DNA of 64,000 nucleotides from Capsaspora owczarzaki ATCC 30864 (taxonomy: Eukaryota > Opisthokonta > Filasterea), in assembly GCF_000151315.2 (NCBI RefSeq), contig NW_011887303.1:742719-806718 (forward strand), given 5' to 3'. The position numbers were made by a program, and so were the translations under genes. Shown here one piece after another: positions 26,300 to 36,015 of the stretch. Below the pieces are notes generated by a model, which was not told where the DNA came from, did no database searches, and saw only the letters and a program-made list of their open reading frames with translations. Position 1 is the stretch's first letter. Every line of letters begins with the position of its first letter.

Positions 26300-27819
26300 T
26301 TAAGGCGTCTGGGAGAGATACTGCTGTAATGCCAACGTGGGCAAGCAAAATCTAGCATCGACGGCCTGGATGGATGCATGGCCAAGGAGGGCCAGTCCCG
26401 CAATGGCGAAATGGGTGTGAAAAACATCGGCTCGCTCGTTCGGTCGAGGGGCAAGCCCTCCCGTAGAACGATTTTGTGTCGAGATCAAGTATTGACACGC
26501 GCCTTCTAGATTGATACGGGACTTCCAGCCAGAGGGGTCTAAAATGGCAAGCGAAGCCAAAGTCCACCAAGCGTAGCACGCCTATACAGGGAAATGTTGC
26601 ATCAAAGGACATGGTCAACACAAGCGAGAAGAATACAGTGCGACTGTTTCTCGAACATGGGAGCAGACTCACATCATGAATCTTCCCAGGACGTCCGTTC
26701 AGGCCGCCAGAATCACGCTGCCGCTCAACCAGCCAGTCGGAGAGCTGTTGCTGCGCGCGTTGGTCTAGTTGTGAAAGTCGATTCAAGATCGCGAGCGTCG
26801 CAAGACAGCAGAATACTGGCCAACAATCAAACAAGCAAACAAGCAAGGTTGAGTGAAGGATCAAGTTGTCGTTAGCCTCAGAGAGCAAACAAACTCACTT
26901 TGACCTGCATGCGACTCTGTGTCAGGCACACTTCCGAATCCAAAATCCCAATTCTGGCATCTCATTAGATGTGCAACTGCAGCATCCACCTTGATTGAGT
27001 CGAGTCCGTTCAGCAGGTAGAGCGTGGCGATTGCGCAGTACGTTGCTCTTGTGTCTCGCTCGCCCCATTCATCGCACGCAAAAGATCCGTCTGGTTGTTG
27101 CAAACCTATCTCCAATGTAACAATGTTGAGATGTGATTCACAACAACGACAACAAGCAACACCGTAAGTCATCTGCAGTCTGTAAAATGTTGAACGTTCC
27201 CTTCCCATTCCCTCCCGCCCCAATACTGTGAGAGCACACCTACCAGCTACATAACGTATAACGCCAGCAATATCAATCGTATCAGCCATAGTTCCATCCG
27301 TAGATCGCAGTGATTTCTCCAACAAGAGGACTTGGATTGCGCTGTATGTATGCAGCATCGTTGCGTCGTGTCCCAGTGCTCCCGCAAAGCCGCCTGTCCA
27401 ATCATCCATCCAGTCAACACCATTCAGAAAAAATACATCCGTATCACCTTTGTACTCTTTGACTGAGATCACCATTTGGGAAAAGCATGAACTCGCCGCC
27501 TCACCGTTCGGTTGCTGGCAGTCGCGAATGTATGCGACCGTCGCCGCTCTGTTCAGGCGATCTGGCATGCCCATCAGACACAGTGCATTCAGGCCCCAGT
27601 AGATGCCCGACACGCGCAGATGGTCGGTCACACAGTGCTCAAAGTCGACCTCTGCCTTCTGAGCAAGACGCCCAGATCCACTCAGTCAGTCCGAATTCAC
27701 TCAGTGCCACCACAACACTGCTCAAATTCATTCCGAGTTTTGCGCGCATAGTGAGTTACATTCTCATAGCTCGCAATGTAAGCAGCAGTCTTTTCAATCT
27801 CAATCACAGCCGAATCCAT
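26300..27819 (-). CDS. RABGGTB: Rab geranylgeranyltransferase (GGTase II) beta subunit
   Basis: Catalytic subunit that attaches geranylgeranyl groups to Rab C-terminal cysteines together with the alpha subunit and REP. Six exons (27819-27760, 27658-27505, 27393-27244, 27105-26899, 26815-26673, 26581-26300) join in phase to 331 residues, the same length as the human protein. Seen: EKTAAYIASYEN, LRVSGIYWGLNALCLMG, GGFAGALGHDATMLHTYSA, LQQPDGSFACDEWGERDTR (zinc aspartate region), NWDFGFGSVPDTESHAGQ then IFCCLATLAIL, GGLNGRPGKIHDACYAWW (zinc cysteine), GGLAPRPNERADVFHTHFAI with the zinc histidine. The FHT..IAGL and end FCLPTLALQQYL match RabGGTB rather than the farnesyl or GGT-I beta subunits. 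Confidence 0.96.
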
Positions 27820-28014
27820 TTATTTGTGAGAGACTTGAAGACTGAAGCTGACTTCAAAACTGTTAGATTTACATGTATGTACATACAAGTGCAGTCTTTT
27901 ACTATCCTCGTAAGAAATCCTAGTCACACAACTCATTGCCAGCTTTGCTTCAATTCTCACAATCTGACTTGAATCTGACTGAAATTCTGAAATTTGTCAA
28001 AACACAGCTCAGAA
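27820..28014. promoter_or_regulatory. Divergent promoter between RABGGTB and the 28015 gene
   Basis: 195 nt between opposed start codons, AT-rich, containing CATGTATGTACATAC near 27871. Both genes must be driven from here. Confidence 0.45.
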
Positions 28015-28557
28015 ATGAACAGCGCGCGACTCCTGCGTCTCGTTGGGCAGAGCGTTGCTGCGCCCGGCGCTGCTGCCATTGCATCGGCGACGACGATGGG
28101 ACAGCCGGCATCGGGCCAACTCAGCAGGCTGGCGTTCATTCAGCGCAATTCAGGCGTATGGAACCAACGCTGCACTCCCGTCGTTGGACGAATGTCCACT
28201 CGGGCCAGCACTCACAAGCATAACACCAACCAAGTAGACAGCTTGAAGGTCGTGGCATCCCCAGAGCGTTCGGACGGCGTTGTCGCTCAAATCAGCGGCC
28301 GCATTCGCACGACCGGAGGCGCAGAATCGCCCGACCGTCACTTCTTCCTCAGGGTCGAGAACACGGGAATGTACGGATTTTCGGTGGCAAAAGCAATGGC
28401 CGAAGCGGTGATGGAGCGCAACGCCGAGTTTGTCACGTCTGGCGCGCTACCGGCGTTTGCGTCGCCAACCACGATTGCCTCCAACGTCGAGACAGAGGTC
28501 ATCCCGCTCGTCAACCATTGCACAAAGCAGTACTGGAAGCACCTTCAAAGCCAGTAG
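28015..28557 (+). CDS. Small intronless protein, organelle-targeted-looking, SpoVS-like core (tentative)
   Basis: 180 residues from ATG 28015, no intron. The first 60 residues are rich in Arg, Ala and Ser with few acids (MNSARLLRLVGQSVAAPGAA), as in a mitochondrial presequence. The core begins SLKVVASPERSDGVVAQISG, continues RIRTTGG, then HFFLRVENTGMYGFSVAKAM and ends near residue 175. By eye this resembles bacterial SpoVS (LKVsakSspnSVAGALAGvlRerG, then a glycine turn and an AVKA helix), an Alba-like fold. The similarity is from memory and weak, so a nucleic-acid-binding role would be speculation. If wrong, it is simply an unrecognised protein. A poly(A) signal follows at 28596. Confidence 0.6.
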   Translation: MNSARLLRLVGQSVAAPGAAAIASATTMGQPASGQLSRLAFIQRNSGVWNQRCTPVVGRMSTRASTHKHNTNQVDSLKVVASPERSDGVVAQISGRIRTTGGAESPDRHFFLRVENTGMYGFSVAKAMAEAVMERNAEFVTSGALPAFASPTTIASNVETEVIPLVNHCTKQYWKHLQSQ

Positions 28558-28686: not shown

Positions 28687-31600
28687 CTAGAGACGAGATT
28701 GTTGCACGAGCTTCATGAGCGAAACTTGCACGTCATCAGCGCGCGCAGTCGTTGCAGACTGAACCGAATAGCTGCCATCCTCTTGCATTTGACAGGCTGT
28801 CGAGGTGCTGAGGTAGAGTCGCATCGTACGTTCCAGATGAGAGGCAATCAACGGGTCGCGCACAGGCAAAGCAATCTGTGGAACACAAATAGAGGGGTGA
28901 AGGAAGGGGTGAGGCTTGCGGGGGAAAAAAGGGAACAAACAGTAGCTTGTTGGTGAACCTCTCGTACCTCGATGCGCTTGCTCAGCTTTGAATGGGCCCA
29001 ATCTGCACTGCCGACAATGTACATCGGACCAGATCTAGGTAGGGCCAGCTGAGAATCGTTCGAATTGGGGTTGCTAGAAGGCTCGCCGTTGGCGTCCTTC
29101 CAGCCGCTCCAACCGTTGCGAAAGTAGAAGAATCGTGTGTGCTCGAGAAATCGTCCAACAACGCTGATGATGCGCAAACTGCGAATATTCCGCATCTTGG
29201 GAGTGATACGGCTTGGACCTCGCACCGACAGGAAAATATTCTGCCAAAATGCAACCACAAAAAAAAAAAAAAGTGGCAGCAACAAAGTTACTTTTCAAAT
29301 CTCGACTGGCCGCCAAACAAACAGCGACCTCAAACTCACAGCACCCGCCTGTGCAGCTTGAATCAGGGCCTCTACGATCGCACCGTCATCCAAAGCATTG
29401 CAACACGCAAAAATGTCTGGCAGCCCGTCGTCGCTGGAATCGGACTTGGCTTTGCTCTTGGCCATCTCCGTCTCGTGCGCAATCAACGCAAGAAAGCGAT
29501 CGCGCATGTTGAAAGGCGAAACGAGAACATGTTGGGTGGGAAACTCTGCTTCTTCGCTGGCAGGCAAAGCCGAGGTCGGGACAGGTTCGGTCGGTGTTTC
29601 TGACTTTGAGGCCAGCAGTTGCTTGAAAAACGACAAGGAAAAAATGGCCGCCACGTACAGGACCAGAGCGGCAAGCAGCGCAGACAACCACAAGACAACC
29701 TCTTGCCAAATTGGCACTCCTTCGGCCGCGACGCGCGCCAACAGCTGGGTAATTTCAGCAGTAATCAGCGGGTTGGAGGTAAAGTAACTCAAGTCCGTGT
29801 AGCGATCGCATGTGCTCTCATTGTAGTTGCCCGACCCGATCTGAGCATACAGGCGCTCAGTTGGCGCCGCGGTCCCGGGCCTGTCACCGCCTTCTCGCCG
29901 CGTCACAACCAGCAACTTTGCGTGCATAATCCAAGCTTGCCGACCAAACAGAACGCGGCAACGGCCCGTATCTCGCAACCGACGAGCCGCCCACGCGTTG
30001 CGTTCCTCGTCCAGCGAGGCTCGGAGCTCGACAATGCATGTTACGCGTTTCTGAAAGGTGGTAGCAGCCTCCACCAAGCTCTGTACCACGGCCGAATTCT
30101 CCGCTACGCGATACAGGCTAATGGTAATGTCGGTGACCTACCAGATTGACCGAAAATGACGCGATGTGTGTGAGAGAGAGAGAGAGCAACGATAAGCGCC
30201 CCACCCCCAAGCTCAACAACCAACAGCAACTCAACGTGGCCAGCAACGCAAGGAAAGCACATACCTTGGGATCAAGACAAGCCGCCCGCAGCATGGCCAG
30301 CACCGAATGGGTCCAACTGTGGAACGGATGATGCGCCATGACGTCGCGCTCGGTGAGACGTTCGAAAAATCGGTCGGCAATCTCGGGGTTCATTTCGTTC
30401 AGCGAATTTGGCAAGAAAGCAAACAGCGGATGAACCACGGGACGCCATGGCGGGAACTTGAGTTGCGGGTTGCTGACCGCGCTGACTAACTGGTCCAGAC
30501 GATGCAAGTGCAGCAGCGAAGCTGACTGCTCTACGATTCTGAGTTCCGGAAGTCCCGCCAACGCTGAGGTGGCGGTGTGGGCCGAAGCAGCTCGATGGCC
30601 GCTTGCCAGCACGAGCAAGACACTTTCCAGCGGCAGGTCGAGTTGGGCCATTAGCGACCACAACCACGTTTGATAGACAGCGCGCATCGTATCCGCTGGA
30701 GCACACGCTGGACACGGAGACTGGAGGGAGCAGGTACACAGCGGCTGGGCAACGAATCGCACAATGCGAGCGTCCTGTCGTTCCTGTAAGAGCTGCAACA
30801 TGGATTCGGGGATTGGTATTTCGGAGGCAGAGTCGTCGTCCTGTCGTGGCGTATCTGCATGAGGGTGAGAATCACGCAGTATGTGCACTCCTGCGCAGAT
30901 ATATGGTGGCGAGAGTGAAGTTCCTGTGGACTGAGGAAGAATTGCTAGCTTGGCAAAGAGGGAAAGCAATTGTGGGTGTTCGACAGCCACTTGGCGCAGA
31001 GACAACGCAACGGCGACTTCCACCGGGACAAACGCATGGCGATCGTTCTTTCGCGCCAGATACAACCACTTGCCCGCGACTGGTGGAATTTCAATCCACA
31101 AGAACTGCTGCTGCTGCTCGTCGGCTTGGTCTTGGGCGCCGGACGGTCGAAACCAACTTGGGAAGAATGGAGTTGTTGAGGAGGATTCAGCTTGCCCCGC
31201 CAAAGAAACGGCAGCGGCACTGCCCACAAACAAGTGTATTGTGCCAACCGCTGCATCCAAGGACGCTGGGTGAGGGAGCTTTGTCGAGATGCGTAAATGC
31301 GGAAGCAGCTTGGTTTCACACTGCGCAATAACTTCCGACCGTTCGACGACGGAGAGGGTGTTTGGATTGGTGACAATGTCAATTCCAACCGCCGCAAGGT
31401 CGGGTTGTAGCTGGCGCGCAAAGAGTTGCCGCATCCGACACTCGAGCTGGCTAATGTGCTGGTTCACTTGCAAATACTCGGGCAGCAGCACCATGCATTT
31501 GTCGTTTGATTGCAAGACCGAACTGGTGGTTGGAGCGACGGAATCAGACGTATCTGGAGCTGCTGCCGCAGCGTACCGCTCTAACGAACTTTGTAACCGA

Positions 31601-32382
31601 TGTAGCTGCGAGTTGTTGGTGTCAGGTTGGCCATTGCCAGCCTCAGTGCTGCTACTACCACTGTCAGGCTGACTTGCGGCCTGCTGCTCGCGACGCGCTT
31701 GGTGGAGCAGCGCCACTGGGAGTAGCTCGGATGGGAGGGCACCCACCGCCCAGTCCGACGTAGCGTCCATCGATGTCTGTGTCGAGTCCCGACTGTCTGA
31801 CGGCCGCTGCGACGATGGCGTCGCTGGTGTTGCCGCCGTTGTGCGCTCAGGCATAGCGGCACGACTGGCTTTGACGGCCGCGTTGGCTTGCGACTGTTCC
31901 AGCTCGAGCTTGCCCAGCCGTTTCAGCGAGAATGCATCCAACGACGACGCGACAATCGCCAGGAATCGCAGGCGCTCCAGCAACGGGATGCATTCACCAC
32001 CACCACCACCACCAGACCAGTGCTCCAGTGACGAGGCAGCCGGAGTTGGGGTCGGCGTTTCGACCGCGTCGCCTTGCCCGTGCGCCCGCCTTGGCTTTGG
32101 TCTTGCATCACCATCCAACACGGCTGCTGCAGCAGCAGTAGTATCGGCGAGGTCCAGCACGCGGTCGAGGAAGGCCAGCTCGGCGTCTCGGCGGCTAAAC
32201 CGCATACAGTTGGCGGCAGGACTTTGCAGCGCTGGTGGCTGTGAGTCGGGCTGGTCTGATGCTTCAGTGACCATTGTGCGATGATGGTCTCCATGATCAC
32301 GATGGGGACCATTGGCGTGGGTTGGCGATGGGCAGTCCATGGCTCGGTTGGAGTCAGAATCCGAGCCAGCACCACCGCTCAT
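28687..32382 (-). CDS. ppk1: Polyphosphate kinase 1 (bacterial-family PPK1) with internal membrane segment
   Basis: Makes inorganic polyphosphate from ATP. Four exons, all phase 0 (32382-30265, 30137-29340, 29240-28968, 28875-28687), give 1125 residues against about 690 in bacteria. The N-terminal half has Ser/Ala/Gln-rich inserts. Seen in order: IPLLERLRFLAIVASSLDAF (bacterial SNLDEF, so the nucleotide-base Asn is Ser here), HHPFHSWTHSVLAMLRAACL, DITISLYRVAENSAVVQSLV, ELRASLDEERNAWAARRL, the catalytic WIMHAKLLVVTRREGG (His of the HAK motif), AQIGSGNYNESTCDRYTDLS, VLVSPFNMRDRFLALI, FLSVRGPSRITPK, SVVGRFLEHTRFFYF (second active-site His), MYIVGSADWAHSKLSKRIE and a final LPVRDPLIASHL. Between GNYN and VSPFNMR lies a hydrophobic stretch, VVLWLSALLAALVLYVAAIF, predicted to cross a membrane. 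Confidence 0.93.
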
Positions 32383-33596: not shown

Positions 33597-36015
33597 ATGA
33601 GATCAAAAGGACTTGCCTTTGGTCTGCTTTTGCTGATGTGCGTGATTCAGCACGTCCAATTGACACAAGCAGTCAATGCCTGTGGCCCTGGCGGCGCGTG
33701 CGATTGCTCGGACGGAACTTCCGTCAACTGCATCGGCAACTCCCTCACAACCATCCCCAGTGGAATCCCAGCGACCACAACGCTGCTGTAGGTGCTGCCG
33801 TCGAGTTGAGATGTGAATTGAATCATCATGACCCTCCCCTGATTTGCCAAGGGTTGATAGGACGCTGCAATCCAACCAGATCTCTCGGATTCCCGCAAAT
33901 GCATTCGCAGGGCTGACTGCGATGCATACACTGTAAGCAAGCAGCGACAGAGAACGAGCCACGCTGACATGGCTCACTCCTTGGCGACTCTATCTGTAGA
34001 TATCTACATCAGAACAAGATCACCAGCATTTCCGGGTCTGCATTCACAGGCCTACCTGTGCTGCATTCGTTGTGAGCAAGCAAGGACACAAGAATCACGC
34101 TCACCCCGACATCCAGCTCACTCGTTTGCAACTCTTATTTGTAGGTATCTATCGGACAACCTGCTCACCAGCATTCCGGCTGACGCATTCAAAGATCTCA
34201 GTATGCTGAATTACTTGTAAGGCAAGCACCTGAAAAGCTCGCGTTCCATTCAATTTTCTCACTTCGAGATACTTTCAGGGCCTTGGAAAACAATCCCTTC
34301 ACCACTTTGCCGCCCGGTCTGTTTCAGGGGCTGCCCTATGTCATGTTTGTGATGAATCTGGCCCCCAACAACTTTACCTATGGTGGGAACTCTGTCGCTC
34401 CGCCCAGCACATACGGAAGTGCTTCCGAACCACATCGTACGTTTGAGAGGCGATTGCACTCTGAATGTGACCATCTCACTGACGTTTGTACTGCAGCGTG
34501 TGATGCAGCCTGTGCCACCTGCTATGATGCTGGGTCCGGTGCGTGTTGCGCACTCAATTGTTTGACCTGCAATTCATCCGCTCCCTGCACTCAGTGCTAT
34601 GATGGGTATGGCATGACGAGTGGATCATGTGAATTACAACAAGGCGGCGGCGGCGACTCAGCGGCTGTCATCGCTGCTGTTGTTGCCTCTGTTGCCGGTG
34701 TTGCGATAATTGCAGCGGTATTTATCGTGTTGCGGCGCAGGCGCTCGCAAGGCTTCGTGAAGCGACCGAACGATTCTGCCGGTCCCGTCTACCAGGAGGC
34801 TGTTGAACTGGCAATTTCTCCTCTGAACCATCCGACTCAGTCTCCCAAAAACGATGGCAGTTCAGTTTACGACAACGTCGATCCAAGGCAGCCACAACCT
34901 TTGTACGAAGATTTCTCAACGCCTTCTTCTACAGAGGGGCTCTACGACAATGAAAGCCCGTATGTCACGGGCAGCAATTCTCGTCGCGTTCGTGAAGGCT
35001 TGACCATTGTCAAGTACCTTGCCAGTGGTAACTTTGGCGATGTGGCACTGGGTCAAGTGGCGTTCAACGTGCTGCCCCAACGAGCGCAGGCCTTGCTTGG
35101 ACGTAAAGCGCCGTCTGAAGCCGTGCAAGTCGCAGTCAAGAGTCTCAAGTCCAACGCGGACGAACAATCCCACAAAGACTTTGAGAGCGAGGCGACATTG
35201 ATGGCTCCGTTCGTGCATCCGAATGTCGTGCGTCTACTTGCGGCTCTCGTAGAGTCAGAGCCTCATCTCGTTCTGCTCGAGTTTGTGCAGTATGGCGATT
35301 TGCACACGCTGTTGCAAAAGTCCAAAAAGCAGTCGTTCGAGTGGTCTGAGAACGAGCAGGTGCATGCCATCCGCCAAATTGCACTTGGCATGGAGTATCT
35401 GGGCACGCTCCACTTTGTTCATCGTGACCTTGCTGCTCGAAACTGCCTTGTTGGCAAGGGGATGGTGGTCAAGATTGCCGATTTCGGGCTTTCTCGCGAA
35501 CTGACCGATGAGAACGATTATTATCGCATGCAAACGCGCGGCAAGCTTCCTGTGAAGGTGAGTTGAGCGTGTGAACGGGTTGCTGTTTGCGGTTTTGATA
35601 CTCATTTTATGGCGATCCTGCGTTTTGTAGTGGATGGCGCCGGAATCAATGACTTTCCGCAAGTTCTCGTCCATGTCCGATGTGTGGTCGTTCGGCGTGA
35701 CCGCCTGTAAGTCGAGTCGTGTGCTGTGAAAATTTGCACTTGCATCTCACTTATTGTTGGTGCATACTGGTAGGGGAATGCCTCAGTTACGGCGCAATGC
35801 CGTACGGCAACCTCGAGGGGCGAGCGACTTTGGCGCATGTGGAGGCTGGTGGACGACTGCCTCAGCCGGAGCACTGCTCAGCTGACCTCTTTGGCCTGAT
35901 GTTCAGTTGCTGGAACACTATTCCGGAACTGCGACCAACCTTTACGCAGCTCATCAAAGGGTTGAAAGGCTTTGAGGATGGCACGCCCATCCGCGAAATT
36001 GGAGCGATGCTGTAA
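33597..36015 (+). CDS. LRR receptor tyrosine kinase
   Basis: Type I membrane receptor kinase. Eight exons (33597-33787, 33861-33932, 34000-34071, 34145-34216, 34279-34436, 34497-35557, 35631-35706, 35774-36015) join in phase to 647 residues. Order: signal peptide (MRSKGLAFGLLLLMCVIQ), Cys-rich LRR cap (ACGPGGACDCSDGTSVNC), LRRs with one 24-residue repeat in each of three 72-nt exons (NQISRIPANAFAGL, NKITSISGSAFTGL, NLLTSIPADAFKDL) plus a last one, Cys-rich stalk (CDAACATCYDAGSGACCALNC), transmembrane helix AAVIAAVVASVAGVAIIAAV, a juxtamembrane with VYDNVD and LYDNES, then the kinase: ASGNFGDV, AVKSLK, HRDLAARN, ADFGLSRE, activation-loop YY, PVKWMAPES, SDVWSFGV. The glycine loop starts with Ala rather than Gly. 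All catalytic residues are present. The ligand is unknown. Confidence 0.94.

Follow-up and report, generated by a model that had tools for sequence, protein, structure and literature searches.

The stretch of DNA studied here, referred to as the window, comprises 64,000 nucleotides of the genome of the filasterean Capsaspora owczarzaki ATCC 30864 (contig NW_011887303.1, positions 742,719 to 806,718). Its minus strand carries, between positions 32382 and 28687, a four-exon gene for a homologue of polyphosphate kinase 1 (PPK1) with 1125 amino acids plus stop. The protein contains both histidine motifs of the family, WIMHAKLLVV (H778) and FLEHTRFFYF (H1006), and between its domains C1 and C2 the chain is extended by an insert with a predicted helix of transmembrane character, termed the seam helix below. 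An earlier note on this DNA, hereafter the original prediction, had described an intron-containing gene of 1125 residues with both motifs, and the reconstruction of the exons gave the same result (Table 1). A small gene finder was trained on 264 kb, made up of the window plus twenty genomic segments of 10 kb each, in which 458 introns were predicted. It returned the first two exons, 32382-30265 and 30137-29340, both unbroken. It deviated in the 3' part, placing the ends of exons 3 and 4 at 28941 and 28708 and adding a fifth exon (28532-28338). The four-exon version was kept because it is supported by homology.

The insert was compared with 88 prokaryotic homologues, consisting of the best 80 of 589 relatives and 8 further loci, and chosen partly by their likeness to the Capsaspora protein. 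Their frames were taken from stop to stop; five are shorter than 600 residues and probably partial. The linker from the conserved YTD to the conserved VSP measures 39 residues in 86 of these homologues, 45 and 41 in the other two, and 95 in the Capsaspora protein. Starting at residue 853, the stretch VVLWLSALLAALVLYVAAIF runs for 25 residues without a charge, in agreement with the hydrophobic segment that had been claimed within the PPK1 chain. Its mean Kyte-Doolittle hydropathy over 19 residues is 2.64, whereas the prokaryotic homologues reach at most 1.29 in the same linker and 1.81 anywhere. Estimated insertion energies were about -2.5 kcal/mol for the best 21-mer, +6.4 kcal/mol for the next region of the protein and +5.2 kcal/mol for the best prokaryotic segment. 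When the protein was shuffled 2000 times, two of the shuffled versions equalled or exceeded its best hydrophobic 21-mer. By hydrophobicity and insertion energy, no second segment of transmembrane type was found over the whole protein. None of the 88 prokaryotic homologues has a transmembrane-type segment at this place, which bears out the earlier statement on bacterial PPK1s. In an AlphaFold2 model of exon 2, the stretch forms one continuous helix (residues 849-880). That this helix lies outside the membrane, buried in the protein or in an oligomer interface, is improbable: the oligomeric state of PPK1s speaks for burial only indirectly, and 25 uncharged residues with so favourable an estimated insertion energy would be unusual for a soluble protein. 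A transposon or a duplicated sequence as source of the insert was rejected, the 186 bp of insert DNA matching itself alone in the genome.

Table 1 Features of the PPK1-homologue gene in the window
Feature	Position	Strand	Description
Exon 1	30265..32382	minus	Residues 1-706: N-terminal extension, disordered (~1-60), N domain, H domain (low-complexity inserts), start of C1
Intron 1	30138..30264	minus	127 nt, GT..AG
Exon 2	29340..30137	minus	Residues 707-972: bulk of C1, hydrophobic insert, start of C2
H778 codon	29922..29924	minus	Corresponds to E. coli His435 in the alignment
C1/C2 insert	29535..29720	minus	Residues ~846-907; net ~56 residues beyond prokaryotic PPK1
Transmembrane-type hydrophobic stretch	29625..29699	minus	Residues 853-877, within predicted continuous helix 849-880
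Polar Ser/Thr/Pro/Glu-rich linker	29535..29624	minus	Residues 878-907; modelled mostly as coil, low confidence
Intron 2	29241..29339	minus	99 nt, GT..AG
Exon 3	28968..29240	minus	C2 including H1006
H1006 codon	29139..29141	minus	Corresponds to E. coli His592 in the alignment
Intron 3	28876..28967	minus	92 nt, GT..AG; gene finder uses the same acceptor and another donor
Exon 4	28687..28875	minus	Last part of C2, C-terminus, stop; based on homology of KRIE|IALPVRDP to PPK1

The hydrophobic stretch could also be removed, wholly or partly, by splicing in the main transcript. A first listing contained 37 in-frame GT/GC..AG pairs that each spanned over 70% of the hydrophobic core; four of them, along with a 102-nt pair, were scored first. 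The full scoring, for GT donors only, took in every in-frame GT..AG pair of 45 nt or longer within 29790-29500 that removes at least 40% of the core, 25 pairs in all. All 25 scored worse as intron than as exon, by at least 9.6 nats. With the least bad pair, 29699..29622 (78 nt), the whole stretch would be lost; it scored -9.6 nats, and when ranked among the 458 introns predicted in training, its donor stood at the 2nd and its acceptor at the 73rd percentile. The strongest donor belonged to 29658..29557 (102 nt), a pair that would take away the second half of the stretch and scored -13.4 nats (donor at the 58th, acceptor at the 35th percentile). For the three real introns the same scoring gave 3.3, 3.9 and 5.5 nats in favour of an intron. 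These values are model scores from a home-made gene finder, not expression evidence, and the gene finder itself chose none of the candidate pairs. The GC content at third codon positions was 0.613 in the insert and 0.612 in the whole coding sequence. The published Capsaspora ppk1 model has three introns (PMC3680246), the same count as found here. Splicing-out of the stretch is disfavoured by these results and appears very unlikely, and the original observation of a hydrophobic segment in the coding sequence stands.

Three Pfam domains of the family were recognised in the protein: PP_kinase_C_1 (PF17941) at residues 672-842 (1.3e-43, 148.9 bits, cut-off 25.7), PP_kinase_C (PF13090) with its best stretch at 911-1015 (3.2e-30, 105.3 bits, cut-off 25.8) and PP_kinase_N (PF13089) at 132-179 (1.2e-07, 32.4 bits, cut-off 23.8). 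The profile search suggested with the original prediction was thus positive for C1, C2 and N, but the PPK1 middle domain was not recognised, its model PF02503 having no match in the protein or in the search of the whole genome. Nor did the VTC catalytic domain PF09359 match the protein. Five PDB entries were found by sequence at E<=0.001, all polyphosphate kinases, the best at 1e-41. For exon 1 the AlphaFold2 model had a mean predicted local distance difference test score of 65.6, and its five structure matches at E<=0.001 were all PPK1, although weak, with template modelling scores of about 0.3. Of the 12 NCBIfam PPK1 models with a match, none reached its curated cut-off: the highest score was 321 bits, and the equivalog model TIGR03705 gave 302.3 against 465.85. 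The Pfam and PDB matches, taken together with the NCBIfam scores below cut-off, therefore indicate a true but divergent homologue: judged by its sequence, the protein is a PPK1 by descent that is not classed as an equivalog enzyme.

The divergence extends to the active site. H435, H592, R375, Y468 and R564 (E. coli numbering), invariant in all 88 prokaryotic homologues, are kept; E. coli His435 (H778 here) is the phosphorylated histidine, and His592 (H1006 here) is the second catalytic one. N45 and R405, residues of the ATP and metal site, are replaced by S147 and S747. The first is N in 83 of the 83 prokaryotic homologues with a residue there, and the second is R in 87 of 88. A homologue from an Acidobacteria metagenome-assembled genome (L049) is the only one of the 88 that also has Ser at R405. 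E48, again uniform in 83 of 83 homologues, has become A, and further replacements are H454 to Q (H in 82 of 88), N18 to L (N in 79 of 83), K433 to I, K536 to C, R616 to S and N617 to K. Among 79 near-invariant columns, 78 are filled in the Capsaspora protein and 16 of these are altered, against 6 in the worst prokaryotic homologue and a median of 1. In a tree calculated by a quick method from 84 of the 89 rows, five short rows having been dropped, the branch of the Capsaspora protein had a length of 3.41, against a median of 0.33, and its placement was not resolved. The protein is, by these sequence measures, fast-evolved. Viral contigs contained no relatives in a scan with patterns taken from exon 2 only, which detects close relatives only.

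The active site of PPK1 is formed jointly by C1 and C2. A plain single crossing of the membrane by a helix placed between them would part H778 from H1006. The position at the seam thus implies either that the helix leaves C2 uncrossed, as a tether, in the plane of the membrane or packed on a partner, or that the protein no longer functions as a polyphosphate kinase. We weakly favour a membrane-tethered PPK1 homologue with C1 and C2 on one face of the membrane, at a probability of roughly 0.4. C1 and C2 would still pack together as they do in bacterial PPK1, both in the cytosol, while the helix would anchor the enzyme, either embedded in the cytosolic leaflet or dipped into it, or else packed on a membrane partner, so that C2 is not carried across. 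The flexible linker of about 30 residues would allow the chain to come back to C2. An enzyme held in this way would make polyphosphate at an organelle or at the plasma membrane, or would carry out a changed reaction there, considering that residues of the ATP site are altered; with a single helix, the PPK1 homologue alone would not be expected to transport the polymer. That each half has kept catalytic residues speaks for a tether. Three observations weigh against it. The hydrophobic moment of the helix is only 0.07, and therefore it is not an amphipathic in-plane helix; it has no break for a hairpin either and resembles an ordinary bilayer-spanning helix. The packing of C1 on C2 in the AlphaFold2 model was steered by 47 prokaryotic rows that have no insert, and this model covers a single exon. 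Finally, N45, E48, R405, K433, R616 and N617 are all replaced, and these replacements, in conjunction with the long branch, make activity doubtful.

The plain transmembrane character and the many changes in the active site speak for a different arrangement, a bitopic pseudo-PPK whose helix spans the membrane. C1 and C2 would then reside on opposite sides, the composite active site would be lost, and the protein would have another role, e.g. in binding or sensing polyphosphate or phosphate. The continuous helix, the very long branch and the 16 of 78 altered near-invariant positions, with N45, R405, K433 and R616 among them and no more than 6 in any of the 88 prokaryotes, are consistent with this arrangement. 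This arrangement is the main rival of the tether and seems somewhat less probable. Against it stands that C2 has kept R564 and that neither catalytic histidine has been lost. By inspection only, no signal peptide was evident in the polar N-terminus, which was modelled with very low confidence, and the translocation of either half is therefore unexplained. SignalP and TargetP found no signal peptide among eukaryote PPK1s in a published survey, the accessible part of which does not state whether Capsaspora was included (PMC3680246).

The original prediction went further and had the enzyme push polyphosphate across a membrane. A single helix without a channel, located at the seam of a bipartite active site in which several near-invariant basic and ATP-site residues are altered, argues against this claim: one helix is present whereas export would need several per chain, a simple crossing would split C1 from C2, and the export mechanism is therefore not supported. 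The assembly (27.46 Mb in 29 contigs) was searched for polyphosphate genes. PP_kinase_C and PP_kinase_C_1 matched at the PPK1-homologue gene only. The VTC polymerase domain PF09359 and PPK2 had no match in the genome, a provisional result of an exon-by-exon search without eukaryotic positive control. Two stand-alone VTC1-type DUF202 membrane proteins are encoded at C4:1644787-1644975 (L117:1033-1824) and at C9:1278778-1278960 (L118:1384-1866, minus strand). Synthesis might still be coupled to membrane transit if the helices of an oligomer, or one helix joined by further membrane proteins, formed a path for polyphosphate. PPK1s act as oligomers, and the genome combines the lack of PF09359 and PPK2 matches with these DUF202 proteins. 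Each chain, however, contributes one hydrophobic helix at the active-site seam, the active-site residues are altered, nothing ties the DUF202 proteins to the PPK1-homologue gene, and the search for VTC could have missed an intron-split gene. A transit path of this kind is hardly probable. Very little credence is given to the more far-reaching proposal that, in a close unicellular relative of animals, the seam helix made a membrane enzyme of a bacterial polyphosphate kinase which, with the orphan VTC1-type DUF202 proteins, replaces the VTC polymerase as an independent route of synthesis and transit.

SPX domains matched at six places, which were read as four genes, each seen in pieces only. Two adjacent SPX-EXS genes of the XPR1 type of phosphate exporters (C2:2223500-2233499, L119) were fused by the gene finder. 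Another SPX gene has ankyrin-like repeats, recognised by eye, and a GDPD-type end, and a further one combines SPX with a PAP2 domain (L120, L121). DHHA2, a domain that occurs in PPX1/prune-type phosphatases among others, gave four matches at three places.

Next to the PPK1-homologue gene, an open frame of 188 residues lies just downstream (27991-28557, plus strand); its N-terminus looks by eye like a mitochondrial presequence, and no Pfam domain matched it at E<=0.01. The product of 26861-27685 (minus strand) is probably a protein prenyltransferase beta subunit, with a prenyltransferase alpha-alpha toroid domain (PF00432, 1.7e-31). At 34184-35566 (plus strand) a neighbouring open frame combines a hydrophobic stretch, noted by eye, with a tyrosine-kinase-type domain (PF07714, 1.1e-46).

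A ppk1 of C. owczarzaki (CAOG_06840T0, UniProt E9CFK0) was described in 2013 as having three introns and 'distinct, unique inserts', and its sequence was excluded from the authors' tree (Whitehead, Hooley and Brown 2013; PMC3680246). The gene in the window is very probably the same one, matched by its description, i.e. three introns and inserts, and not sequence to sequence. The novelty implied by the original prediction consequently does not extend to the presence of PPK1 in Capsaspora, already reported in that survey. The accessible part of the survey text does not mention a hydrophobic segment (PMC3680246). In the literature searched, whose coverage excluded bioRxiv and most subscription journals, no title or abstract opening concerned a transmembrane PPK1, and as far as this literature shows the seam helix is a new feature. 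The protein bears on how eukaryotes without VTC make polyphosphate and move it across membranes: encoded in a holozoan genome in which the VTC polymerase has no match, this PPK1 homologue with its membrane-type helix is a candidate, open to testing, for polyphosphate synthesis at a membrane. Should it prove inactive, it would be unusual in having a catalytic fold divided by a membrane helix.

With the bacterial PPK1s of known structure (E. coli Ppk, 1xdo/1xdp; P. gingivalis, 2o8r) the Capsaspora protein shares the domain order N-H-C1-C2, both histidines, R375, Y468 and R564; a structural alignment with 1xdo over 191 residues, which belong to C1 and early C2, shows 35% identity. Unlike them, it has the seam helix with its linker, changes at N45, E48, R405, K433, R616 and N617, a middle domain not recognised by Pfam, a long disordered N-terminus and low-complexity inserts. 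DdPPK1 of Dictyostelium discoideum is likewise a bacterial-type PPK1 in an amoeboid eukaryote and is stated to be without transmembrane segment or organelle signal (PMC10657179). As judged from this published description and not from an alignment, it differs in this from the Capsaspora protein. The VTC complex, composed of the Vtc4 polymerase and Vtc1-type membrane parts, has a catalytic fold unrelated to PPK1, and the likeness lies only in the idea of polyphosphate synthesis tied to a membrane protein.
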